NCBI GenBank assembly: GCA_013287965.1
Contig: JABDCU010000001.1
Span: 69,910-105,391 of the forward strand
Length of the DNA: 35,482 bases
Origin: Candidatus Omnitrophota bacterium
Lineage (GTDB): Bacteria; Omnitrophota; Gorgyraeia; Zapsychrales; Fredricksoniimonadaceae
Direction: 5' to 3'
Each line of letters opens with the position of its first letter. Position 1 is the first letter of the stretch. Both the position numbers and the translations under genes were made by a program. Shown here in pieces: positions 1 to 28,511 of this stretch. The notes under the pieces are model-generated. The model saw nothing but the letters and a program-made list of their open reading frames with translations, did no database searches and was not told the origin of the DNA.

Positions 1-3000
1 ATTCATCACCAAAACCTGCTGGGTCTCGGCAATGCCTAATTCCATGGGAAGCCCAGCGTGTTTGATGGACGTCTGTGGGGATGCGCCAGTGCCGCCTTCA
101 TAGCCGGAGATCAACACATGATCTGATTTGCCTTTGGCAACACCTGCCGCGACAGTGCCCACCCCGACCTCAGAAACGAGCTTAACGGAGATCATGGCCT
201 GCGGATTAGCATTCTTGAGATCGTGAATTAATTGCGCCAAGTCCTCAATGGAATAAATATCATGATGGGGCGGCGGTGAGATCAAGCCAACCCCGGGTGT
301 CGTGTGACGGGTATAGGCAATTTCCTGGGACACCTTGTGCCCCGGAAGCTGTCCGCCCTCGCCGGGCTTGGCCCCCTGGGCCATCTTGATCTGCAGCTGG
401 TCCGCGTTGACTAAATATTCGATCGTCACCCCGAAACGGCCCTGGGCCACCTGTTTGATGCGGCTGCGGCGCCAATCACCGTTGGGATCTTTTTTAAAAC
501 GCACGGCATCTTCGCCGCCCTCGCCGGTATTTGAAAAACCGCCCAAACGGTTCATGGCAATGGCCAGGGTCTCATGAGCTTCCCGTGAGATGGAACCATA
601 GCTCATGGCTCCCGTGGCAAAACGTTTGACTATTTCCAGGGCCGGCTCAACTTCTTCAATGGGTATGGGATGCCCTGTTTTGAATTTTAAAAGCCCGCGG
701 ATATTGGCTATTTGCCGGCTGTGTTCGTTGACCGCTTTGGAAAATTGTTTAAAGACCTGGAAATTGCCCGAGCGCGTGGCGTGCTGCAAAAGGGCGATCG
801 TCGTCGGATTCAATTGATGATATTCCGCTTCTTTGCGCCAATAATATTCTCCGCCTTCTTCTAACATGCTGTCCTGGGAAGGCCAGCGGGGATACCCTTT
901 GTCATGACGCATCAAGGCCTCTTGGGCCACTGTATCAATGTTGATCCCGCCGATGCGTGAAGGTGTCTCGGTAAAATATTTATCTATCAGCTCCGGGCCT
1001 AAACCCACCGCCTCAAAGATCTGCGCCCCGCAGTAAGATTGGATGGTGGATATCCCCATTTTAGAAATGATCTTATACAGGCCCTTGTGACAGGCTTTCA
1101 GAAAATTCTTCTCCGCTTCCTTGAAACTCATCGACAATTCAAATCTTTCGTCCTTGGTCATCGCTTCAATGGTCTCAAAAGCCAGATAAGGATTGACCGC
1201 ATTAGCGCCATAACCGATCAGGACCGCAAAGTGATGCAGTTCCCTCGCCTCGCCTGTTTCAACCACGATGCTGACCTTGGTGCGCGTCCCCCGGCGGATC
1301 AGGTGATGGTGCAGGCCCGCGCAAGCCAACAGCGACGGGATAGGAACTTTCTTGGCGGAAATATCACGGTCCGAAAGGACCAGGATGCTACTGCCTTTTC
1401 CAATGGCACGATCGGCCTTGGCACACAAAGCTTCGAAAGCTTTTTCAACCCCCGCGATGCCGTCCTTCTTGTCAAATACCATCGGCAGGACCAGGGTCTT
1501 TAGTGACCCGTGACGGATGCGGCTGATCTTTTCCAATTCTTCATTGGTCAGCACCGGACGCTGTATCCATAAACGGTGGCAATGCTGCGGGCCTTCCTCG
1601 AGCAAATTGCTCTCAGGCCCCAACATCATGTCCTCAGCCATGATGATCTCCTCACGGATGGCATCAATGGGAGGATTGGTCACCTGGGCGAACAATTGTT
1701 TGAAATATTCAAAAAGATGCTTAGGCTTATCCGACAATACCGCCAGAGGCGTATCTGTCCCCATGGAACCGGTGGCTTCTTCACCCAACGCCATCGGCTG
1801 CAATAAAATTTTAAGGTCTTCCAACGTATACCCAAAGGCGCGCTGGCGTTCCAACAAGGTCTTTTCATCAAGGCCGTTCACTTTTTTAGGCGCGGGAAGT
1901 TCGCGTATGTCCACGATATTTTCCCTGAGCCATTTTTCATACGGCTGACGGCTGGCATAGGTTTCTTTGACTTCACGATCATCGATGATGCGGCCTTCCT
2001 GAGTGTCCACCAAAAACATTTTTCCCGGCTGCAGGCGTCCTTTAGTAATGACTTTTTCAACAGCAATGGGCAATACCCCTGCCTCTGAGGCCATGATCAC
2101 GATATCATCGTTCGTGACCAGATAACGCGACGGGCGTAAGCCATTGCGGTCAAGGAGCGCGCCGACATAGCGTCCATCGGAAAAAGCAATGGCCGCAGGA
2201 CCGTCCCAGGGCTCCATCAGGCAGGAATGGTATTCATAAAAAGCTTTTTTTGAACGTTCCATCCCCTGATGATTGCTCCACGCTTCAGGGATCATCATCA
2301 TCATGGCGTGCGGCAAAGAACGCCCGCAAAGGACGAGCATCTCCAGCACATTGTCAAAAGTCGCGGTGTCTGAACCGTGCGGTACGACGATGGGCAATAC
2401 TTTTTTCAAGTCCGCGCCAAATGCTTTAGAAACAAATTGTTTCTCGCGCGTCTGTATCCAGTTGACATTGCCCCGTAACGTATTGATCTCGCCGTTGTGC
2501 GCGATATAGCGGTAAGGGTGGGCCAAGGCCCAGCTGGGGAAAGTATTAGTGGAATAACGCGAATGCACCAGGGCAATGGCTGAAACCATCACCGGGTCAC
2601 TGAGATCCGGGAAGAAACGGTCCACCTGCTCGCTCATCAATTGGCCTTTGTAAACCATGGTGTGGCTGTTAAGCGAACAGAAATAATAAAAATTCTTCTG
2701 CGGCAAGGTGGAATTATAGACCTTGTTCCACAAACGCTTGCGGATCACGTAAAGTTTGCGGTCGAAATCTTCCCGCGGGGTCTTGGCGCCTCGGGCAATA
2801 AAAAGCTGTTTAAAAGCCGGCATCACCGAACGGGCCACACGGCCGATCTTGGAGGGCTCATGAGGCACTTCCCGCCAGCCGATCAGTTTCTGTCCTTCTT
2901 CGTGGATAATATGCTCGGTCCACTGTTCAATGATATTGCGGTCTTCCAAAGAAGTGGGCAGAAAAACCAGGCCGGCGCCATAATCACCGAGAGCCGGAAG

Positions 3001-15616: not shown

Positions 15617-17644
15617 TTAAACAAATATCCTCAAAACCAATAATCCCATGCCGGTAATGGCGCCAAAGCAAAGTAAATATTGTAAACAGGCCGTTGCCGC
15701 GTCGAAAAAATGGAATTCAACGCTGCGCGTTTGGATGCCTACAGGCACTGCCTTAAAACCATCCACCGTCTGTTGGATCTTGGCTGGTACTCCGTCGACC
15801 AAAGCCTTCCAGCCGGGATCGAACGCGTCCGCATAATAAAACCAGCCAGGCTGCGCCACCGCTGAGACCTTGAAAATGACCTTGTCCGGATCAAAATAAC
15901 TTGCCTCTGCTTCGAGCGGCATGATGAATTGGTATACGTCGCCCCCTGGAATCAGCGGCAGCTGCCTTAATAATGCGCATTTAGGCATCCCGTTGCAGCC
16001 GGCTATTTTTTGGTAATTCATTTCTTGATTGTCCTGGGACTTTTCCCAAGTATTCAGGACCGCCTTGTTGACGACCTGTACCGTTGTATCCGTGTGGCAT
16101 GTGTCAAAATCCAGGGTGTTGAACATGGTGACATAATTACGGCCCCGCCCTGTTTTTTGGACCATCGTCGTCATGAGCCATCGAAGGTCCCGCGGGCTGT
16201 CCAATCGTGTGGTATCAAAATGCGTCGGCCTGACATGCGTAAAAACCTCGACCATGTCCGGAAGAAAAGGGTCAACCTTCGGATAACTTTGTCTCAACAA
16301 ATTTTGAAACACTACCGCTTCAATGATCAAGACCAGCAGTATCACCGTTTTGACCCGGCCATCCCATGGTTTTGACCAATAAAAACCGATGAATAACAAA
16401 AAAAAGATGGCCGGGACCAGTTTCAAAGGATGTCCCAGCGCCATGTGCCACCCCTGCTGCCCTTCCATCATGATAAACCATATCATCAGAGGTATCATGG
16501 TCAGGCGCGTGGCCTGCTTCTTTTGTTCAAATAAATATTTGAGCCCGAAACCGGCGCCTATCAATACCAGCACCTTGATCAACGGCGCTGCCAGCCCGAT
16601 ATGCCGGTATAGGCTCATGCCCGGTAAGAAATAAAACAACCTGGTCGATAAGCCGCCCAGAGAAAAAAGTAATATAAAAACTAATCCTATGAGAATTGAC
16701 CGGAAAAATAGATCCCTGCAATAGATGAGCGCCGTCATAAGAAAAAGCCCCGTAAGCATTCCCACATAAAGCGTGTTATCACAGCCGCTGCCCAAGGGTG
16801 AATAAAGATCCCCCATGAAAAATAGCTGGGAAAATAATTGCCCAAGATCCATGGTCCCGCCATGGGTCAAAAAAACATCCATGGAATTTTGCGCGTGGGT
16901 GTCCCGTATGGTCAGGCTTAGGTCTGTAAAACTTTTAAGCATCACCAGCCCGTAGGTCAACACTAATGCGCCGGTCACGCCCGCCGTTAACTTCGTCAAT
17001 GCATCGCGAGGCCAAAATAAGGACGGTTTGATCTTCTTGGCAGTACATAAAACAACGGTGATCACGGCCAACGTATAGTATGTCACAATGGGCATATAGA
17101 TCGAGTTGCCCATCGCTCCCAGCACACCAACAAGCAGCATCATCCAAAAAAACTTTGGGTCTTTTTGTTCGACGAAATGCCATAACAACAGCAGCGCCAA
17201 AGGCAGAAAATAAATGATGCGTAAATTAAAAAAAACATTTGAATACGACTCCATGCTGATGATCGCTGCTAAACTGATGGCCGTCGCGGTCCATCGGTCC
17301 TTAAAGAGCGCCTTGATCAAAAAATATGCGCTGATGATGAAAAAAATCTCCTCGGACAACAGGGTTATCTTGAACAAAAGCATGACATCTGTCGTTCCAA
17401 GAAGTTTTCCGGTCAGCATGACAAGATAACTTAACGGCGAGAGTGTAAAGAATTGGAAAAACAAGGAAGGAATGCCGTAGGTGATCTTCGGCATCCATTG
17501 GGGCCATGTATTATAATAATAAAAATGGTTATAAGAATGGTAAAACGTGCTGAAAGCAAAAAAGGTGTCGTGGCGTGGAAGGATGGGCTGCTGAAAATAA
17601 TATAGTCTCAAACATACGCATAAAATAAAGATCAAGATCGGCAT
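15617..17644 (-). CDS. YfhO-like polytopic membrane protein
   Basis: Protein of 675 residues dominated by membrane helices, with a soluble domain in the last third and a final helix. LPRHDTFF (Asp26) after the first helix fits the GT-C acidic loop. Near the C-terminus YADAFDPGWKALVDG (DPGW at about 609) is the hallmark of YfhO-family proteins, which in Firmicutes glycosylate lipoteichoic acid using a lipid-linked sugar. It is the first gene of the minus-strand glycosylation run, separated from glnA by an intrinsic terminator. Confidence 0.82.
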   Translation of the reverse strand: MPILIFILCVCLRLYYFQQPILPRHDTFFAFSTFYHSYNHFYYYNTWPQWMPKITYGIPSLFFQFFTLSPLSYLVMLTGKLLGTTDVMLLFKITLLSEEIFFIISAYFLIKALFKDRWTATAISLAAIISMESYSNVFFNLRIIYFLPLALLLLWHFVEQKDPKFFWMMLLVGVLGAMGNSIYMPIVTYYTLAVITVVLCTAKKIKPSLFWPRDALTKLTAGVTGALVLTYGLVMLKSFTDLSLTIRDTHAQNSMDVFLTHGGTMDLGQLFSQLFFMGDLYSPLGSGCDNTLYVGMLTGLFLMTALIYCRDLFFRSILIGLVFILLFSLGGLSTRLFYFLPGMSLYRHIGLAAPLIKVLVLIGAGFGLKYLFEQKKQATRLTMIPLMIWFIMMEGQQGWHMALGHPLKLVPAIFFLLFIGFYWSKPWDGRVKTVILLVLIIEAVVFQNLLRQSYPKVDPFLPDMVEVFTHVRPTHFDTTRLDSPRDLRWLMTTMVQKTGRGRNYVTMFNTLDFDTCHTDTTVQVVNKAVLNTWEKSQDNQEMNYQKIAGCNGMPKCALLRQLPLIPGGDVYQFIMPLEAEASYFDPDKVIFKVSAVAQPGWFYYADAFDPGWKALVDGVPAKIQQTVDGFKAVPVGIQTRSVEFHFFDAATACLQYLLCFGAITGMGLLVLRIFV

Positions 17645-17651
17645 AAGCGAT

Positions 17652-17680
17652 ACTATATATTTTCTAAATATAAATTACAA
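17652..17680 (-). promoter_or_regulatory. Possible promoter of the glycosylation operon, near-leaderless
   Basis: Minus-strand TTGTAA (17675-17680) and TATAGT (17652-17657) are 17 bases apart, directly downstream of the glnA terminator. The predicted start would fall within a few bases of the ATG at 17644, so the transcript would be nearly leaderless. Confidence 0.4.
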
Positions 17681-17683
17681 CAG

Positions 17684-17714
17684 AAAAGGGGCGGATAAAA
17701 TATCCGCCCCTTTT
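17684..17714 (-). terminator. Intrinsic terminator of glnA
   Basis: A perfect 14-bp stem (AAAAGGGGCGGATA and its complement) with a 3-base loop starts 25 bases after the glnA stop. On the minus strand it is followed by TTTTCTGTT. The A/T flanks would also let it work in the other direction. Confidence 0.92.
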
Positions 17715-17738
17715 GTTTGCACAGACTTAGACTTGATG

Positions 17739-19880
17739 TTACGCATTCATCAACAGTATTTCCGCGTAACTCGGCAAAGGCCATATATTCGCCGGAACAA
17801 GTGCTTCCAGGGCATCAATGGACTCACGCAGCTTGGCCATGGCGCCACCGATCTTAAGGCCGTCGTGCTTTTCCAAGGTTGCCTCCAAGGCATCGCAATT
17901 GCTCAACGACTGGTCGATCAGGCCGGAGAGTTCCTTAAGCAGCTTCTTCTGCCCTGTGGTCTTTCCAGCGCTGCCCACCGTCTTGATGGTTTCAGCCAAC
18001 TGTTTTTGGTATTCAATGGCCGCGGGGACCAATTGGGTTTTAGCCATGGTCAGGGCGCAATCACCTTCCAGGACCTGGACCGTTGTATAAGCATGTTTAT
18101 TGATCTCATAACGGGAAGCCATTTCCACTTCACTCAAGACCCCATGCTTGACCATGACCTGGATATTTTTCTTGGCCTTGATCACTTCCAGGGCTTCGGG
18201 TGTGTTCTTCATATTGGGCAGGCCGCGCTTTTTAGCTTCGACTTGCCACTCTTGGATATACCCGTCTCCGTTATAAACAACCCGCTTATGTTTCTTAATG
18301 ATCGCCTGCAATACTTTTTGCAGGGATTCATTAAAATTCTTACCGGCCTTTTTATCTGCTTCTAATTGATCGCAGATATCACTCAAGGCTTCTGCCACGA
18401 TGGTATTGAGCACCATGTTAGAGGCAGAAGGATTTTGGTTGGAACCTACAGCACGGAATTCAAACTTGGCACCGGTGAAAGCAAACGGTGAAGTTCTATT
18501 GCGGTCAGTAGTGTCCTTCGCCAAGGACGGCAGGGCATCAACACCCACATGGATAGAACCGCCTTCTTTGGAAGACTTGGCCCCACCCTTTTCAATTTGC
18601 TCAATGATATCTGTTAATTGTGAACCTAGGAAGATCGACACGATCGCCGGAGGCGCTTCATTGGCACCCAGGCGATGATCGTTGCCCGCAGTGGCGACAG
18701 TGACGCGTAAAAGATCAGCGTAAGTGTCTACCGCCTGAATGACCGCGCATAACATGGCCAAAAATTTGGCATTTTCATGCGGGGTCTTGCCCGGATACAG
18801 CCAGTTTTTTCCGTCAGGACCGACCACTGACCAGTTATTGTGTTTGCCGGAACCATTGATGCCGGCAAAAGGCTTTTCATGTAAAAGACAGGTAAGCCCA
18901 TGCTTGTCCGCGATCTGGCGCATGAGGTCCATGACGATCATATTATGATCAACACCGCTGTTAAGGTCTTCATAGATCGGGGCCATTTCATATTGGGCAG
19001 GAGCGACTTCATTGTGACGGGTCTTGGAAGGGATCCCCAACGCCCACAAGGCGCGGTCCAGATCTTCCATGAAGCCCATGATGCGGGGCTTGATCGCACC
19101 GAAATAATGGTCTTCCTGCTGCTGATGCTTGGCCGGTTTTCTGCCGAACAAGGTGCGGCCGGTCTGTACCAGGTCCATGCGTGCTTGAAAATGGGCCTTG
19201 TCGATCAGGAAATATTCCTGCTCCGGGCCTAAAGTACAATAAGCGCGCTTGCCCTTGGTATCAATGCCAAAAAGGTTGGCCAAACGGCAAACTTGCTTGC
19301 TTAAAGCCACCATGGAGCGCAGCAAAGGCGTTTTCTTGTCCAGGGCCTCGCCATGATAGCCGATATAAAAGGTCGGGATACACAAGGTGGTCGCTTCCGG
19401 GCCTTCTTTAATAAAGGCCGGAGAAGTCGGGTCCCAGCCGGTATAGCCGCGGGCCTCAAAAGTCGCACGCAAGCCGCCGGAAGGGAAAGAAGAAGCATCC
19501 GGCTCACCCTGGATAAGGTTTTTACCGGAGAAATTCAAAACAACGCCGCCCGCATTGTCCCAATCAATAAAGGAGTCATGCTTCTCGGCCGTGACACCGG
19601 TCAAAGGCTGGAACCAATGGGTATAGTGAGTAGCGCCCTTGGCAACGGCCCATTTTTTCATGGCCTCGGCCACTTCATCAGCGATAGAAGCGTCTAATTT
19701 ACCGCCTTCTTTAATGGTCTTTTCGATGGAAACGTATGCCTTCGGAGAAAGCATTTCTTTCATCACCTTAAGACTAAACACGTTTTCGCCGAAATGTTCA
19801 GGCAAATGTTCACTGAAAGAACCGTTGCAGCAGCTCTCCTCAGCGCAAGCCTGAATGACCTCTTCGCGAGCTTGACTCAT
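17739..19880 (-). CDS. glnN: Type III glutamine synthetase
   Basis: Makes glutamine from glutamate, ammonium and ATP. The length of 713 residues is typical of type III enzymes (about 700-730) and much longer than type I (about 450-470). Visible motifs are [37 protein letters not shown] and [16 protein letters not shown], all characteristic of GSIII active-site segments. CNGSF near the N-terminus and the long C-terminal helical extension also fit. AAGGGGG lies 6 bases before the ATG. It has a private sigma70-type promoter, a leader with ANTAR-type stem-loops and a strong terminator, so it is monocistronic. The leader implies control by premature termination rather than only by a repressor. Confidence 0.97.
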
Positions 19881-19934
19881 AAAAAACCCCCTTAGTTTTA
19901 CGGTTGATCTATAACTTAGCCCTAAAAAGCAAAA

Positions 19935-19986
19935 TCCTCCTTGAAATTAACCTGCTATGGTTTTCAAGGAGGACGTCAACGCCCTC
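19935..19986 (-). promoter_or_regulatory. ANTAR-type leader attenuator of glutamine synthetase
   Basis: In the minus-strand RNA, stem 1 is GAGGGC-GUUGAC-GUCCUC (19969-19986), a 6-base loop with G at position 4 but G rather than A at position 1. It overlaps the start of a long hairpin at 19935-19973 (arms UCCUCCUUGAA/UUCAAGGAGGA) whose tip is AACC-AUAGCA-GGUU, a hexaloop with A1 and G4. AUUUUGCUUUUU follows. Stem 1 and the long hairpin share the GUCCUC segment, so they exclude each other. This fits known ANTAR antitermination targets (two hexaloop stems, the second in the terminator). Confidence 0.75.
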
Positions 19987-20001
19987 AATAAATGTAGCCA
20001 A

Positions 20002-20048: not shown

Positions 20049-23000
20049 CTAATTGGAATTGAGCATCATCTGGAAGGCGCCGCTGACGCTCAATTCCGAC
20101 GTGAAACGGACAATATTGAAGTTAAACCCTTTAAAACCGTCAGGCATCCTGGAGATGCCCGCTTCCCGGAAAAACGCCGGACTTGGACTGGAAGGCCGTT
20201 GGATGTATTGGGGCTGAAAGTTCAAATCAATCCCGCCTTCTTTTTTGACCGCAGAAAACATGGCAGCATTAACCGAGAGCCCTTTCTTTTGGGCTCCATT
20301 TATTTTTTTCGCCTCTTCTACGATCTTAATCTTTAGGGCTTTCCAATTCCCGACTTTTTCCCCTGAACCAACCGATGCATTTGTCTTATTATAAAGCCTG
20401 ACCATGATCTCTTTCATCCTCATATTGTCTGTCGCTCTGCCGTTAGACAAAAGCGGTCCCCAATAACGTGCGAGTGACAGGCAACTAATACTAAAGGTAA
20501 AAAACATATTTAAGAAATTAAAAGGGATAACCCGCGCAATGCTCAGTATGACTTGAACAATGAAAATGGCAGTCGGTATCAAAAAAAGCAGACGCCCGGT
20601 AAAACTGCTTATCCTTGTACTCTGACTCGTTTCTGCATATCCATAACTACCAAACCTTTCCCCTTGAAAAATGACCTCCTTCAATTTTTGTAGGCTAAGA
20701 GTGACATACCCATTAATGTCATTATACGTGCCCGGTCTGATCAAATTTCCTATCCCCATAAGGTCTCTAAGGTCGGGTCCTAACTTTTTCACTGGTTTAC
20801 GTGCCACAAAATCATAGCCCAAACTCCATGTTGTTATCCTATTGATCGCTTCTTTCTTTTCCCCCTTATGAAAATGTTCATTCACTGACGTGTTTACATT
20901 TACCCTTCCCTGGAGAATATCTAAATACTTTTCGACTTTAATCATCTTTAAGAACATTTTATCCCTATTCTCCAGGTACCGCTTCTGCTGGTCCGTGGTT
21001 AAATCCTTGGCCTTAAAACGATCCGCCAGGGCATTGACCGTTCTATTGGCAAGCTTCATAAAATACGCGTAACTGATCTGATACGCCTGATTTTCAGCTG
21101 ATGTTGCCTGGACATCCATCAGGTGCGGGGTATACGGTATTGCATCAAGGATGTTATCGGCAAGTCCGTTTATTTCTGCCTGAAGACCAAGCAACTGATC
21201 CGTCGAGTATCTGTCATTTCTTGAAAAATTCATCAATTTACCATACCAATCTATTATAAAATCAGCCGCCCTTGGTTCCACCCTATTACTATCAATTCCT
21301 CCGCCATTTCCATTCCCATTTTTATTATTCAGGGATTTCGCGTCTGAAACATTCATTAATTTTTCTAAACTGGAGAATTTTCTATCTTTCCAGTCCAAAA
21401 ACATTGGGACCAGGATAAATGCTGCCCCGCCTGTCATTAATAAAATACTTGTAAATAGGCCTGTATGGTATGTCCATCTCAGGGCTCTCCACCACCAGGG
21501 GCCTGTATAAATTTCCTGATTATTGGCATCCATGCGTGCAAGAATATCGTCCCTGTATTTGATTATTTTATCAACCATTTCTTTGTCTTCGACGGAAATG
21601 GCGGCTTTTTGGGTCAAATAATCATCCTGCCCATCAGGATTGTTCAGAGAATCCAAATCCTGGTCGATCTGGTTTAATAAATCGATTTGCGCGTCGGAAT
21701 AAACCGCCCCTCCCGCTGTATAAACATTTTTCTCCCCCACTTTAGGATAGATGTCCTTAAGAACAATGATGGCCCTTTTCAAGGCTATGAATTTGGCCTG
21801 TGCGTCCTGCGTAATGGTGCCGCCTTTAGTTAAACCTTTGAGCGCCTCGGTCAGCTTAATGGAAGAATAGGTGTTCTGGATAGTTGTCTGGATCCAGTCT
21901 TGATTTGTCCGGAGGTCCATGATGCCTAAGGCCACACGGAATATGCCCATGGCAGAGGGATTTTTAATGGTTTTGGCATCTTGCTTAATAGTGTTGATCT
22001 GATAAAGAAATAATTTTTCAATTTTCTTACGAAAAGCATCATCCGAAGACTCTTGTGCATATATCCGCAGCAGATCAATACGACCGTCTTGGCTCGCCAT
22101 CAACAGACCCAAAACTTTATCTAAAAGTAACGGGCTTTTTATCATTGACCGGGCCTCAACAATGCGGCCTAATTCAGAATTTGTAGCGGGTTTGAAAGTG
22201 ACTCCGTTGGCGGTGGTGCCTCCCATGGAATATTTTTCTTGACCCTCCTCATCAAGGCTGCCAAATAATCTCAAGCTGTCTTGAGCAGCCACCGTGCCGG
22301 GAACTTCCAGTAACGGATTTTTATCTGATTTTTCTGTTGGGTTTGCCTTGAGATCAGCCCTGGCCAAAGCATCAAATCTGTCAGTGGCTCCTTTTGTCAA
22401 ATCCGGCCGCAATTTTCCCATTTGCTCCCAATCAGGATCATCAAAGAACAGCTCGTAATCCTTGGGGAGTTCTTGTATTTGGCCCCGGGCAATATTAAGC
22501 TGATTAATATCGATTTCAAGTGAGTCCGTATTCTGGATTTCACCTTCAGTAAAGTGCCCCCTGTTGGCCTCTAAAAATATCCTGCGGATCCCTATATTCC
22601 TGATCCGGTCTCTTGATGTTTTAATCCGCTGATCATTCGGATGTTGACCTAAATACCTGTCCAGCTTATTGTATAATCTGGCGAGTTGATTAGTGTTCAA
22701 GTAATTACTATATAAGAACGGGGCTTGGCCAAGTCCTCGAGGGTCCTGGTCAATAAAGGTTAGTAATACACTTTCTGCATCCGTGAGGGAAGCAAGAATA
22801 GTGGTTGGGTATAAACCATTCAATACTTCAGGATAGTCCTTAAAAATATCACCCAGTTTTTGATACGCCAAATTAACCGCCTCCTTGCTGCCTTCCTTAC
22901 CCTGTCCCTTAATAATGACATTGATAAAGAAGGGCAAGTCCTTACGTTCAACCGCCGTCCTAAAAATCTCCTCCAATGCAACTGAAGAAGGATGGCCCAG

Positions 23001-26000
23001 GACGTAACCGGCAAGTTGTTGGGCAGATTCCTGGTCATTAGGAATGTCCTTGAGAAGATTCAGTGTTTGCTGACGATTCAAAGGATTAGAATCACCAGAC
23101 ACTCCCAGCGGATTATTATTTCTTAAAGCGCTGTGGGTGACAGTCTCCGGAGAGGGCCCCTCGATCTTGTCCTGGGCGGCCAGCGGCATGACAGCAAGAG
23201 CAATGATTGATACAAGTCCAAAGATAAAATTTCGAAGAGACGATGAAAATGCCAGCTGTGCTTTATTCCCCGTGCTCGGGCTGGCTTTCACCAAGGACCC
23301 ATCCCAAACTCCCATTTTTATTAAATTCTCCCGCTGCTCCAAATATTTTTCCTTAGGATCAAGGGACTCAATCGAACTCTTGGTTAAATCCCGCCGTTGG
23401 GTGGTATATGTATACTTCGGATAGACCCCCGGCTGACTGGCGGGTATTTCCCAAATTTCAAGAGCAGTTTGATATCCTTCCTGTGTCGTTTTAATTCCCT
23501 TACTGGATGAGTTATTGGCAATGACCGTTTGATGCAGTTCTTTTTCAAGTTCACCTTCTCTTTGCTTAATGATAGCGTCAGCTTTTTCTTTCTGTATGGC
23601 AAGACCTTGAATTTCTATATCCGTTAGTTGGTTTTTTATATCGAATCCAGCCTGTAACAAACCACTCGTCCCTGTAATACTTGAACCTCTTTCTATGGCA
23701 CCGCTACCATAAGGTTCATAAGGCAAACTGCTCATATTGGTATTCGGGACAAGCGATCCAACGGTCAAGGATGGTTTTTTCTTTAATCCCTCTTCCTTTA
23801 TTTCAGCCAGGACAACGTCCAAATCAGCCCAGGCCTTGCGTAACCGTGGGTCCGGGCTAATGTCCTTGGCCTGTTGGAAAATCGGCGCCATTCTACTGTC
23901 ACTCTTTGTGATCTTTTCAATGGCCTCATCCAGGCTTTTATAGCCCGCTTTTTTCAAAACTTTTTCCAAATCATACTTTGTCTTAAAACGCACCTTGGTG
24001 TTATCTCTGGGGTCATCGCGCCAAATACCATCTTTTTCATTATATGGATTAAAAATATTCTTCTTGTCCTTGTCATTCTTGATGAAATTAATCCCTGAAA
24101 ACTTTGATTTTTCAACAGTCCCGTCTGCCAGAAGCTTTGTAAGCATCTTCTGTTCTGCTTGCTGTGTGATTTCGGGGAAATCACCTGTCAAAGTCAACTG
24201 TGCAACCATGTGCGGACCACCCACTATTTTTTCACCCATCAAAAAATTAAGATCACTGGTCAATGCTTCCTCTTCAGCCTCTTTATCCTGGATCTGTTTT
24301 TGGACAGCAGGTATCTCCTTATCAATTTCTAACACCCTGGAATGTTCCGTGAGCTTATGCGCCTCTGCGGCTTGCGCCCCTCTGCGCGCCTCTTGCAAAT
24401 CATTTAGCAATGCCTCTGAATTTGCGATTCCTTGCTGGACGATGCCTAACTTGGTGTACAAAACTTTTGCAACATAGATTTGCTGTGCCAGCGCTGTTTG
24501 CAAAGCATACCCGGCGGAATTTTCCCCCGCGCTGTACACTGCTTCCTGCTTGCCTATTTTATCTCCGATGCGATCACTAACACTGCCCAAGACATTCCCA
24601 AAAACCAAAGCCCCGACATTATAGAGATCACCTACCGTTAACGCGCTTGTCACGCCATTAACTAACCTGCTGGCTCCGCCAAATCCGGATAATCCACCCT
24701 TGCCCCCGTAAAGACTGACGAATATGCTGGTTTTTTTAGCCCCGGGTATGAACTTCTCTATTGTGCTTAACATCACATTATAAAATTGTTCGGCCAGCAG
24801 TACTCCTTGATTTTCGGTCACCTTTTGGACTACTTGCTGGAGACTTACAATCTGCCCTTGGGGGGTATAATATTTGGGGGGCACTATTGGGGCAATGAAT
24901 TGACCAACGGTATTTTGTGCAAAAAGTTGAGAAGCAAACCCTTGGAGCCCATCAGGTGGCGGCGGTAAAGGGGCGCCCCATGTTGAAGATAATAATGCAT
25001 CCTCTGGAATAAACCCCGTGGCCAATGCGATTTCTTTTTCTTTATCAGTTAACAATTTAAGGGGAAATCTCATACCCTTACGCAAAAAATGGTTTGGATC
25101 ATGCATGGTCACTTCAACAGAATACGCCGGACCTATTACCGTTGATACGACGTGTGGGGTTGGGTCAACAGCTGTCACTTCACCTAACACCGGACCTGCC
25201 GGAGCCATGCCCTCGACAATAGCCCCACGCTGAACTCCTGCAGAATAATAAATAGAATATGCGCTGCCCTTGAGGTCCCCCAACAAAACCTTGTTATTAT
25301 TAGTAGTAACCACCGCGCTCTCTTTTTGATAAACATCTGTTCCATTCTTTCCTGTCCAGGTAACAACGCCGTCCTGGTCAGCCCTGATCTCCAAATGAGA
25401 AATCGTATCTTGAAGGTCTTTTGCTTCTGCCTGCAGACGGCGTATATTAGAATTGATCTTGTCCACTTCATCCCGATTGATAATGACGCCCCCATTAGGA
25501 AAAGAAGCTCGAGTAAGCTTTATCTTTTCACCCTCCATTTGAGTAAGCACCGTTTCCAGTTGTATTGCAAAAGGTTCACGGACACCTTTGACCATGACCT
25601 GCCCCCTTTTGACCTCATCTCCCTGATTAACTTTGAATTCATACGAATCCAGCGCCGGGACATGCTTGGTGTACTCATTAATTGGAGGAACCGGCACATC
25701 GGTTGTTGCCCTTCCCTTAAAAATGGGGATATCACGACCCTCGTCAGACGCATAAAAGGTGGCGTGGAATTTCACCTTTTGGCCCGGAGATATGGGTGTC
25801 TGCGGCGTCACAATGAAACTCACCCATATATTTTGGACAGAAGAAGCCGACTCAGACCAGTTAAACCAAAAAGTGCTTTCAGCAGGTTCTCCGTCAATAG
25901 TAACAGCAGCCTTTTGAAAATAAACATTGTATGGGATTTCAATATCAAACCGCGATCTTTTCCTGTCATAATATCCTGCCAGGACTGTGCCAGGACCTAC

Positions 26001-28511
26001 TGTATCACCTTCTGCGACTTTAAAATCGTTAACCGTAGAATTATACGGCGCTTTTTTTACGCCTGATCGTTCTATGAGCTTGGCATTGGCTAATTGCCCT
26101 TGTAAATCTAAAAGCTTTAGTCTGGCATTGACCACATCCAGGGCGCTGGCTCCACCTTCCTGCTGCGCTTCTTCTGTTTCCTTTAACGTCTTTTCTTGGT
26201 CACTGATATTGCCATTTAATTCTTCAATGTGGTCCTTATTTTTTTGGTCAAGAACGGTTAGTACCCTTGTGTCATTATTATAATTTTTTTCCTGCACATT
26301 CAAGCCGGTAATGACCCCTCCGGTTTGAGTCACTATTTCATTTTTCACGTCAGCAGCCTGCATTATTTTATAGGGTGCATTAGAGGGGTATGAATAGACA
26401 ACTTTGTTATGTGTAAAGGAAGGCACCTTTCCTGACTCTCTGGCGAACCGAGGCGGCGGTGGGGCCGCTCCGCCGGTTGATTCCCCCCTCGTTTCACTAG
26501 AAGCTGGAGCTGTAAATGTTCCTGATTTAGCATCTGCAGCTGCTTGCGGTGCAGGCGCCATTGGTGGAGCTATTTTTGGTGCAATTACTGCTGGCTTAGG
26601 CGGAACTGGTATATCTACTATTGCTTTAGGAACTGCTGACACAGCTACTGTTGGCTTAGGGGCCGCTGACACAGTTATTGTTGGTTTAGGAGATGCTGAC
26701 ACAGTTACTGTTGGTTTCGAAATTACCAGCGCAGTTACTGTTGACTCAGGCGCTGCTTCTGGTGCAACTTCTGCTGGTAGAAGCGTTGGTGGTGCAGATG
26801 AGGGAGCGGCTTGTTGGGGCGCTGGAGAAGCCTGGGGTTGAGAAATTGGTAAAGAGGCAGCTGGCAGTGCTGTATTGTCAGCTATACTGTCAGCTGCTCG
26901 AGAAGTACCCTGTCGTCTTTGGTCGGGTACTTGTTGACTTGCTGGCTTAGGCATTACTACTGGTGCAGTTGGTGACGCAGCTGCTGCTGGTGCAGTTGCT
27001 AGCGCTGATGCAGATGAGGCTCCCGGCGTTGGAATAATAAATTTATCACCCTCATATATTAATTCAAGTCCGTTCCTCTTGTACTTGATAGGATTTTGTA
27101 TATTACCTTTCACCGGATCCCCAACCTTTGCCACCACGCCATTCTCACCCCACAAGGACTTATGGTAAATCTTCCACATAAGATCTGAAAAAGTTTTATC
27201 CCCTTGCTGCACTTCTATTTGGGTTTTGCCATCAGGCAATGGTGTGCGTATTTCACCGTGGGCTGTTACAGTCGCCCCCAGAGAAAGCGCCACGAACACA
27301 AGAACTTTAAACAAGGTCTGCTTACTCAATTGTGCCGCATTCGCCGGCAATACCAACGGATCCTGGCCGATAGAAAGAAGCTTGACCCTCATATAACCAA
27401 AAAATTTATCTTTTAACTCAACAAAATGTTCTTTTAGCGCGGCAAATTCAGGCACCTGTATATTAAGCATCCACGCCGAGGAATCTCCAAAGTACTCCCC
27501 GCCGGAAAAATACTTGCGCGGGACCACTTGATTAGTGACCGGATCCACGTCTTCGCGGATATAGTTATAGGCGCCTTTTTTGAAAATACGCAAATACTGT
27601 TTATATATCTTTTCCGTGGCACCTTTGTCCACGTCATTAACGCCGGAAATTTTCTTCTTATTGACATACACATCAGAGAGGATATTGCGTTTCAACTCAC
27701 GCTTAAACCAATCAGCCAGGACCAGGGAATAAAAGACCTGGCGCACCGGGGCAAAATTCTTCCCCTCATTGACCTCTTTTTGCAGCTCAGGCAATATGAT
27801 CTCTTTGGTGATCTCGGAAGTCAATGTATGGGCCCTTCTGGCCCCTTTGTCCGCCCTGGCCATATTTTTCTTAAGCGCCAGATAATCTTCTTCCAACATC
27901 ACCTTAAGATGCGTGTCGCCCACCATGGCACTGTCACCCATGTCATAGACAACGGCCTTATCCGGCACGATCCAGACCTTGTTATACGTATTGATCGGCA
28001 GGTCCGTTGTCCCGTATTTTTCAAACGCTTTTTTGTAAACCTGCGCCCAGAATTTCTTACCCAGGGAGGTTTCGGGATAGGTCAACGAAGAAGATATTTG
28101 CTTCAAGACCTTGTCCTGGTCAAGCAGGGTGTTTCCGGCATTGGTCAGGGCCAATTCATTGGGAATGATGCGGCTTTTTTCATAAGGAGAGAGATTGACC
28201 CAAAGATCTTCTTCGGGAATGGTCAGGAAGGTGAGAAAATATTTGACCAGAAGGGACGTTTCCTTTTGGTCAAGCGCCTGGCGGTTGCCTGAATCAACCA
28301 CAAAATCAAATTCAAAGGGTTTGTTTGGATAAACACGCATCCCGCGTAAAACGGGGAAAGAATACGGGGTAGAAAGGTCAATATAGTTGGGGGATGGTAA
28401 AAAAGGCGTGCCTTGGGCCTGGACCTGTTCCAGGTTATTCTGGACCAATAAACAGGCTAATAAAAGACAAATTACGCGGAAAAACCTGGATTTCTTCTTC
28501 AGGATAGCCAT
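20049..28511 (-). CDS. Giant envelope protein: LysM-like, adaptor-like, TolC-like and helical-repeat regions
   Basis: Single uninterrupted frame of 2820 residues. Residues 1-32 are a signal peptide; LLAC at 17-20 is a marginal lipobox. 45-380 is a conserved-looking block (TIPEEDLWVNLSPYEK, PRKYFSGGEYFG) that I recall from Omnitrophota giant proteins. 398-417 is a second signal-like helix ending VTA. 430-495 is LysM-like (VQQGDKTFSDLMWKIY, YEGDKFIIP). 496-700 is a Pro/Ala/Val stalk with 10-residue repeats (KPTVTVSASP). 700-1165 resembles HlyD-type adaptors: coiled coils around 760-810 and 980-1040, and sandwich-hybrid motifs such as KVAEGDTVGPGTVL and ADQDGVVTW. 1225-1430 and 1610-1690 resemble the two halves of TolC-type proteins. 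1756-1779 is a third signal-like helix. 1800-2340 is an alpha-helical repeat. Membrane helices lie at about 2350-2371, 2639-2660 and 2662-2683. No strong ribosome site is seen. Function unknown; a role in envelope transport or anchoring is inference. Confidence 0.9.
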   Translation of the reverse strand: MAILKKKSRFFRVICLLLACLLVQNNLEQVQAQGTPFLPSPNYIDLSTPYSFPVLRGMRVYPNKPFEFDFVVDSGNRQALDQKETSLLVKYFLTFLTIPEEDLWVNLSPYEKSRIIPNELALTNAGNTLLDQDKVLKQISSSLTYPETSLGKKFWAQVYKKAFEKYGTTDLPINTYNKVWIVPDKAVVYDMGDSAMVGDTHLKVMLEEDYLALKKNMARADKGARRAHTLTSEITKEIILPELQKEVNEGKNFAPVRQVFYSLVLADWFKRELKRNILSDVYVNKKKISGVNDVDKGATEKIYKQYLRIFKKGAYNYIREDVDPVTNQVVPRKYFSGGEYFGDSSAWMLNIQVPEFAALKEHFVELKDKFFGYMRVKLLSIGQDPLVLPANAAQLSKQTLFKVLVFVALSLGATVTAHGEIRTPLPDGKTQIEVQQGDKTFSDLMWKIYHKSLWGENGVVAKVGDPVKGNIQNPIKYKRNGLELIYEGDKFIIPTPGASSASALATAPAAAASPTAPVVMPKPASQQVPDQRRQGTSRAADSIADNTALPAASLPISQPQASPAPQQAAPSSAPPTLLPAEVAPEAAPESTVTALVISKPTVTVSASPKPTITVSAAPKPTVAVSAVPKAIVDIPVPPKPAVIAPKIAPPMAPAPQAAADAKSGTFTAPASSETRGESTGGAAPPPPRFARESGKVPSFTHNKVVYSYPSNAPYKIMQAADVKNEIVTQTGGVITGLNVQEKNYNNDTRVLTVLDQKNKDHIEELNGNISDQEKTLKETEEAQQEGGASALDVVNARLKLLDLQGQLANAKLIERSGVKKAPYNSTVNDFKVAEGDTVGPGTVLAGYYDRKRSRFDIEIPYNVYFQKAAVTIDGEPAESTFWFNWSESASSVQNIWVSFIVTPQTPISPGQKVKFHATFYASDEGRDIPIFKGRATTDVPVPPINEYTKHVPALDSYEFKVNQGDEVKRGQVMVKGVREPFAIQLETVLTQMEGEKIKLTRASFPNGGVIINRDEVDKINSNIRRLQAEAKDLQDTISHLEIRADQDGVVTWTGKNGTDVYQKESAVVTTNNNKVLLGDLKGSAYSIYYSAGVQRGAIVEGMAPAGPVLGEVTAVDPTPHVVSTVIGPAYSVEVTMHDPNHFLRKGMRFPLKLLTDKEKEIALATGFIPEDALLSSTWGAPLPPPPDGLQGFASQLFAQNTVGQFIAPIVPPKYYTPQGQIVSLQQVVQKVTENQGVLLAEQFYNVMLSTIEKFIPGAKKTSIFVSLYGGKGGLSGFGGASRLVNGVTSALTVGDLYNVGALVFGNVLGSVSDRIGDKIGKQEAVYSAGENSAGYALQTALAQQIYVAKVLYTKLGIVQQGIANSEALLNDLQEARRGAQAAEAHKLTEHSRVLEIDKEIPAVQKQIQDKEAEEEALTSDLNFLMGEKIVGGPHMVAQLTLTGDFPEITQQAEQKMLTKLLADGTVEKSKFSGINFIKNDKDKKNIFNPYNEKDGIWRDDPRDNTKVRFKTKYDLEKVLKKAGYKSLDEAIEKITKSDSRMAPIFQQAKDISPDPRLRKAWADLDVVLAEIKEEGLKKKPSLTVGSLVPNTNMSSLPYEPYGSGAIERGSSITGTSGLLQAGFDIKNQLTDIEIQGLAIQKEKADAIIKQREGELEKELHQTVIANNSSSKGIKTTQEGYQTALEIWEIPASQPGVYPKYTYTTQRRDLTKSSIESLDPKEKYLEQRENLIKMGVWDGSLVKASPSTGNKAQLAFSSSLRNFIFGLVSIIALAVMPLAAQDKIEGPSPETVTHSALRNNNPLGVSGDSNPLNRQQTLNLLKDIPNDQESAQQLAGYVLGHPSSVALEEIFRTAVERKDLPFFINVIIKGQGKEGSKEAVNLAYQKLGDIFKDYPEVLNGLYPTTILASLTDAESVLLTFIDQDPRGLGQAPFLYSNYLNTNQLARLYNKLDRYLGQHPNDQRIKTSRDRIRNIGIRRIFLEANRGHFTEGEIQNTDSLEIDINQLNIARGQIQELPKDYELFFDDPDWEQMGKLRPDLTKGATDRFDALARADLKANPTEKSDKNPLLEVPGTVAAQDSLRLFGSLDEEGQEKYSMGGTTANGVTFKPATNSELGRIVEARSMIKSPLLLDKVLGLLMASQDGRIDLLRIYAQESSDDAFRKKIEKLFLYQINTIKQDAKTIKNPSAMGIFRVALGIMDLRTNQDWIQTTIQNTYSSIKLTEALKGLTKGGTITQDAQAKFIALKRAIIVLKDIYPKVGEKNVYTAGGAVYSDAQIDLLNQIDQDLDSLNNPDGQDDYLTQKAAISVEDKEMVDKIIKYRDDILARMDANNQEIYTGPWWWRALRWTYHTGLFTSILLMTGGAAFILVPMFLDWKDRKFSSLEKLMNVSDAKSLNNKNGNGNGGGIDSNRVEPRAADFIIDWYGKLMNFSRNDRYSTDQLLGLQAEINGLADNILDAIPYTPHLMDVQATSAENQAYQISYAYFMKLANRTVNALADRFKAKDLTTDQQKRYLENRDKMFLKMIKVEKYLDILQGRVNVNTSVNEHFHKGEKKEAINRITTWSLGYDFVARKPVKKLGPDLRDLMGIGNLIRPGTYNDINGYVTLSLQKLKEVIFQGERFGSYGYAETSQSTRISSFTGRLLFLIPTAIFIVQVILSIARVIPFNFLNMFFTFSISCLSLARYWGPLLSNGRATDNMRMKEIMVRLYNKTNASVGSGEKVGNWKALKIKIVEEAKKINGAQKKGLSVNAAMFSAVKKEGGIDLNFQPQYIQRPSSPSPAFFREAGISRMPDGFKGFNFNIVRFTSELSVSGAFQMMLNSN
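26635..26754. repeat. 30-bp tandem repeats inside the giant gene
   Basis: Three consecutive 30-bp units (26635-26664, 26665-26694, 26695-26724) and a degenerate fourth, each beginning GCTGACACAG or similar on the plus strand. They encode the 10-residue repeats KPTVTVSASP, KPTITVSAAP and KPTVAVSAVP of the stalk. Unit number could vary between strains. Confidence 0.85.

Follow-up and report, generated by a model that had tools for sequence, protein, structure and literature searches.

A predicted fusion of two periplasmic adaptors and an outer-membrane factor in a giant protein conserved among Omnitrophota

The window, a stretch of 35,482 nucleotides from a Candidatus Omnitrophota genome (contig JABDCU010000001.1 of assembly GCA_013287965.1), carries a giant gene between the glutamine synthetase III gene and the genes for P-II and the ammonium transporter Amt, the whole setting covering window:17739-30391. 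Positions 20049-28511 of the reverse strand form a single open frame of 2820 amino acids (aa). The source genome is incomplete (70%). Close relatives within the genus encode frames of 2794, 3037, 3086 and 2912 aa that keep the parts in the same order, so the frame is real; the 2794-aa relative lacks the C-terminal transmembrane (TM) part. Over the first 400 residues these relatives are 45-68% identical to the window protein; beyond that, identity drops to roughly 15-37%. A function deduced from the nitrogen-related neighbours was considered and rejected, since glutamine synthetase III, P-II and the ammonium transporter are not found beside the orthologs examined.

Much of the layout that an earlier note had read from the DNA letters was recovered (Table 1), including a Sec-type signal peptide, a conserved block (residues ~30-345, with ~25 further copies in the same genome), a Pro/Ala stalk (~495-700), and a helical region followed by membrane helices, here resolved as one and then two C-terminal TM helices. 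That note had passed over the hydrophobic segments at 395-418 and 1762-1780 and the C-terminal module. Three orthologs (L058, L059 and L060) carry, between the TM pair and the C-terminal module, an extra ~300-aa domain of no known family that the window protein lacks.

Table 1. Features of the 2820-aa protein, with residue numbers and positions in the window
Feature	Residues	Window positions	Strand	Basis
Signal peptide, Sec-type (MAILKKKSRFFRVICLLLACLLVQNNLEQVQA, then Q)	1-32	28416..28511	-	Hydrophobic segment; paralogs show the same n-h-c layout
N-domain, ends PRKYFSGG	33-343	27483..28415	-	Matches in own genome, relatives and phylum
Internal signal-peptide-like or TM segment, NAAQ before	395-418	27258..27329	-	Conserved in orthologs
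Segment read earlier as LysM-like	430-494	27030..27224	-	LysM not confirmed
Pro/Ala-rich stalk	495-700	26412..27029	-	Sequence; ortholog lengths vary
Adaptor module 1 (lipoyl halves, alpha-hairpin ~756-815, beta-barrel)	~716-945	25677..26366	-	hhalign, PDB profile, AF2
Adaptor module 2 (lipoyl halves, alpha-hairpin ~979-1038, beta-barrel)	~946-1170	25002..25676	-	NCBIfam, PDB profile, hhalign
Outer-membrane-factor (OMF; TolC/OEP-like) module	~1230-1735	23307..24824	-	hhalign; OEP in orthologs
OMF beta-hairpin 1	~1263-1280			AF2
OMF long helices	~1287-1425
OMF lineage-specific insert	~1475-1580
OMF second strand pair	~1597-1655			Placed by analogy
OMF second long helices	~1629-1732
Hydrophobic signal-like segment (...FIFGLVSIIALAVMPLAAQ), NKAQ before	1762-1780	23172..23228	-	Hydrophobicity
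Helical domain	~1785-2340	21492..23159	-	No family match at cut-off
TM helix	2352-2370	21402..21458	-	Conserved in L059 and distant orthologs
Inter-TM domain	2371-2633	20613..21401	-	Sequence; inference
TM pair	2634-2672	20496..20612	-	Hydrophobicity
C-terminal module (GGIDLNFQPQ...FKGFNFNIVRF...), VNAAM before	2759-2820	20052..20237	-	GGI-type tail pattern

The order adaptor-adaptor-OMF, which the earlier note had proposed to look for in other Omnitrophota, is retained by 18 of the 92 related genomes, in ORFs of up to ~3300 aa. Seventeen of these genomes belong to the window's own family and one to another family of the same taxonomic order; several of the frames are interrupted by contig ends or gaps. 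In two genomes (G005, locus L061, and G026, locus L192) the gene is apparently split, with N stretches at or near the breaks, and assembly gaps are the likelier cause.

The earlier note's reading of two or more HlyD-type modules with coiled coils was borne out as two complete tandem modules, with NCBIfam, PDB profiles, Foldseek and hhalign all matching the adaptor family within ~716-1170. The NCBIfam family RND_mfp matches residues 959-1175 (E 2.7e-15), with a score of 56.1, below the NCBIfam full-length cut-off of 94.9. PDB searches retrieved EmrA (2.5e-11), MacA and MexA with a profile of six relatives and a MacA-MexA chimera (1.9e-12) with one of 16; the EmrA and chimera matches fall on module 2, and module 1 matched MexA, HlyD and MexJ. 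When the fused region was aligned by hhalign to stand-alone adaptors of the same order, which are Pfam HlyD proteins, two tandem matches were obtained, at 98.2% (E 2.7e-14) for module 1 and 98.6% (E 1e-15) for module 2, and Pfam HlyD families were found in up to 11 of 16 ortholog adaptor regions. An AF2 model of residues 700-1757, of low confidence (pLDDT 50, pTM 0.32) and best in the adaptor helices, shows the hairpin of module 1 and gave AcrA, MexA and MacA in Foldseek (E 3e-7 to 1e-5). The barrel-sandwich (lipoyl) domain split by an alpha-hairpin, which defines periplasmic adaptors, is therefore detectable here by profile. A Pfam OEP match at 759-811 of the window protein coincides with the adaptor hairpin; we took it as a coiled-coil cross-hit and did not use it for the OMF. 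The motif RxxxLxxxxxxS, through which adaptors contact TolC (PMC3391258), is intact in its S/T form in 6 of 8 stand-alone adaptors of relatives and absent from every fused hairpin tip checked, in the window protein and its orthologs; hairpin 1 of many orthologs retains only the L and the S/T.

The OMF module was recognized mainly through its relatives. A five-row profile (A6) run against 92 genomes retrieved, via model positions 625-812, stand-alone proteins of ~410-480 aa, and the two that were scanned are Pfam OEP proteins (2.6e-41 and 9.2e-39). Aligned by hhalign to 12 stand-alone OEP proteins, the fused OMF region of 16 sequences matched at 98.0% (E 2.1e-13) over 299 columns that run through both OEP halves, and crossed controls between the adaptor and OMF sets gave 1.7% and 2.9%. 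Scanned singly, 10 of the 16 ortholog OMF regions matched Pfam OEP (PF02321; best 2.5e-13), and any other family matched at most one member; the profile match across the two homologous halves that characterizes OEP proteins is thus provided by the orthologs. The window protein's own OMF region, scanned alone, has no Pfam match. In PDB searches a six-sequence OMF profile gave helical and coiled-coil chance matches only, and a 16-sequence profile gave only OprJ and an OprJ-like protein (0.025-0.034). The 50 best PDB matches of the AF2 model in Foldseek are all adaptors, with no TolC structure among them; for the OMF part this low-confidence model predicts a beta-hairpin, containing the TSIFVSLYGG strand, and a helix of ~90 residues. 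Two TolC-like segments (1225-1430 and 1610-1690) had been proposed before; their likeness to TolC holds, but rather than separate segments they make up a single complete protomer, one half each, parted in the window protein by an insertion of ~100 residues. In two orthologs (L198 and L200) the OMF part is shortened to 262 and 237 aa.

The LysM-like domain that the earlier note had placed at 430-495 was not confirmed. Pfam gave no LysM (PF01476) match there, and hhalign against LysM reached 19% with three sequences and 2% with the window sequence alone, which does not exceed the values of control windows. Within this stretch, three orthologs have a segment resembling PG_binding_1 (PF01471; E 2.2e-4, 7.3e-4 and 0.15) below the Pfam cut-off (the two best score 21.8 and 20.1 bits against 23), and the Pfam scan of the window protein itself gave no such match. 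The proposed peptidoglycan anchoring is therefore weakly supported; contact with the cell wall through the linker stretch is possible.

The window protein is a member of a larger, apparently unnamed family that spans the phylum Omnitrophota and is built from a signal peptide, an N-domain of ~310 aa, a payload that varies between members and, at the C-terminus, a GG[IV]D module. A search of the source genome gave 26 N-domain matches, the ~25 further copies being ~50% identical, and dozens are found per genome across the order. The full-length query matches 80 of 92 relatives through this domain, and its profile matches 63 of 190 genomes of the phylum. At the loci examined (L031-L164) the sequences that bear it are Omnitrophota in almost every case; one (L136) is labelled as a Phenylobacterium sp. 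MAG and is probably a mis-binned Omnitrophota contig. The N-domain has no Pfam match, the high-confidence core of its AF2 model has no match in a PDB fold search, and its profile gave a single non-significant match against PDB. A pattern search picked out a GGI-type tail in 85 of the 99 family ORFs whose 3' end is intact, and a variant tail can be read in several of the 14 others. Payload domains include acyl carrier proteins, enolase, TIM and GAPDH-like domains, the enolase and TIM being extra, diverged copies of enzymes that relatives retain in normal stand-alone form. In one member (L064:2-9343, reverse strand) TIM, a weak GAPDH-like match, DeoC/aldolase and enolase lie between the N-domain and the C-terminal module.

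The segment at 395-418 resembles a second signal peptide, with a basic start, a hydrophobic core and an A-x-A-like end. Its hydrophobicity peak is at least 2.0 in 7 of 10 measurable orthologs (70%), a threshold reached by 2.3% of background windows and by 13% of the remaining family members. This conservation hints at a possible removal of the N-domain before the remainder of the chain acts. A true TM helix here, following a cleaved signal peptide, would place the adaptors in the cytoplasm, so the segment has to be cleaved off, be carried across the membrane, or be of another nature. The signal-like segment at 1762-1780 is present in L057, L059 and L061 and was not found in more distant orthologs. 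Positive charges after the first TM helix suggest that residues 2371-2633 are cytoplasmic.

Four lines of sequence evidence, together with conservation across a bacterial family, support the central claim of the earlier note, that an adaptor and an OMF are joined in one natural chain, as real and conserved. From module order, homology and conservation we infer what the fused chain might do: we give a probability of about 0.5 to an exported, envelope-spanning chain of two adaptors and one OMF that works as a 6:3 exit duct on trimerisation. The N-terminal signal would route the chain through Sec, and the OMF part would insert in the outer membrane with both its flanks remaining periplasmic. Three chains would trimerise via the TolC-like part, their three OMF modules forming the exit duct and their six adaptor modules the usual ring, giving a 6:3 set from a single gene. 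The C-terminal TM helices would anchor the chain in the inner membrane, leaving 2371-2633 and the tail on the cytoplasmic side, and a separate inner-membrane transporter would supply the duct. Both the N-domain and the C-terminal module would be general targeting or handling modules of the Omnitrophota family, outside the duct itself. According to the part of PMC4446572 used here, a 3:6:3 stoichiometry dominates among tripartite pumps and fused adaptor dimers occur in nature, which makes two adaptors per OMF the expected ratio. We found no RND, ABC or MFS transporter domain in the chain (Pfam, NCBIfam) and no transporter gene conserved next to the orthologs, whose neighbourhoods differ; one could be encoded elsewhere. 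Also counted against the duct are the loss of the RLS motif, the low-confidence AF2 model and its missing TolC match, the window protein's own OMF region without a Pfam match, the shortened OMF of L198 and L200, and the topology conflict at 395-418. Of the new envelope machine that the earlier note had envisaged, the fusion stands, and the machine, given the missing transporter and the eroded TolC-contact residues, may be put forward as a proposal.

A different processing of the chain is suggested by a short motif, [DNS]xAM, which occurs 267 times in the family's payload regions (L063-L083 and L085-L164) against 44 expected, a ~6-fold enrichment (100 shuffles gave at most 62), and 177 of the occurrences have D at -3; some other family members have D-x-A-L variants. 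At the sites in 23 paralogs of the window's own genome all synonymous Ala, Asp and Asn codons are used and SD-like stretches are few, pointing to selection on the protein rather than on a translation start. The motif lies at domain junctions in both members examined closely, and the segments between motifs are whole domains: acyl carrier proteins start at the M, and the L064 enolase begins exactly at the M of NKAM. Of 53 hydrophobic segments, 11 have the motif immediately before them, where 3.3 would be expected; these include internal Sec- or Tat-like signals, one of them the Tat-like KAKTSRRDFLETS. L067 (ORF 15754-19998, reverse strand) has an internal Tat-like signal (KAKTSRRDFLETSVRAVIVAGLG) that immediately follows DLAM. 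These observations, and the conserved signal-like segment after the N-domain, would fit a polyprotein precursor, in which a protease cuts beside the junction motifs and frees the N-domain from an adaptor-OMF protein with its own signal (395-418), with a third piece using 1762-1780 and the C-terminal module as further products. However, the motif is mostly missing from the orthologs of the window protein, which itself has NAAQ and NKAQ in the motif's places and NAAM only before the C-terminal module; the polyprotein is therefore a rival here and not the main explanation. No candidate protease was identified, and the N-domain's signal peptide is hard to square with cytoplasmic processing, so that we regard this reading as rather unlikely. 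An argument that the payload enzymes are sole copies and hence need processing was rejected, since stand-alone TIM and enolase occur in nearly all relatives. More tentatively, and with a slightly lower chance, Omnitrophota genomes might each encode dozens of exported polyproteins, bracketed by the N-domain and GG[IV]D and cut at [D/N/S]xA-M, of which the window payload would be a 2:1 adaptor/duct unit.

The adaptor and OMF folds might instead have been recruited as non-conducting structural pieces of a giant surface protein, forming an envelope fibre or scaffold. Giant ORFs of Omnitrophota are thought, in the part of PMC10066038 drawn on here, to serve attachment or predation, and the fast evolution of the body relative to the N-domain, the lost RLS motif, the two shortened OMFs and the missing linked transporter would all suit such a role. 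Most orthologs nevertheless keep the two OMF halves and the two complete adaptor modules in order, beyond what a fibre would need, and we consider this reading improbable. The diverged enolase, TIM and GAPDH-like domains in other members, whose relatives have normal copies, would also agree with the chain being one of many accidental fusions, in which host genes came to lie between the N- and C-modules of the family and drift without a function. Against such a decaying fusion, frames of up to ~3300 aa with zero internal stops and a constant module order are kept across one family, which makes it very improbable indeed. The exit duct thus stays our preferred reading.

Should the fusion function as a duct, a single gene would fix the adaptor-to-OMF ratio of 6:3, offering a natural test of long-debated assembly models and a covalent construct for structural studies. 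It also gives one large unannotated Omnitrophota ORF a testable mechanism, and the N-domain and C-terminal module define a phylum-wide family missing from Pfam. We found no adaptor-OMF fusion in the literature searched; reviews of tripartite pumps, in the parts used here, mention natural and artificial fused adaptor dimers and two-adaptor systems.

Like the giant Omnitrophota ORFs of PMC10066038, among them the 39,678-aa protein of Velamenicoccus, the window protein is huge, has TM helices and few annotated domains; those ORFs are described as adhesion or degradation proteins, and the part of that paper considered here does not mention an adaptor-OMF fusion or the N- and C-modules. DSY0927 of Desulfitobacterium hafniense, as cited in PMC4446572, likewise has two adaptor modules per chain, but the part of that source used here mentions no OMF for it. 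TriABC-OpmH of Pseudomonas aeruginosa (PMC8277102) also has two non-identical adaptors (TriA and TriB) per unit, encoded however by separate genes and accompanied by the RND pump TriC. With AcrA-TolC, MexA-OprM, MacA and HlyD-TolC the fused protein shares the adaptor fold with its alpha-hairpins and a two-half OEP-type OMF, and its two adaptors per OMF match the 6:3 ratio of tripartite pumps and type I secretion. It differs from the tripartite pumps in being one chain instead of separate proteins, in having no transporter and an eroded RLS tip motif, and in carrying an additional N-domain, helical domain, TM helices and C-terminal module.
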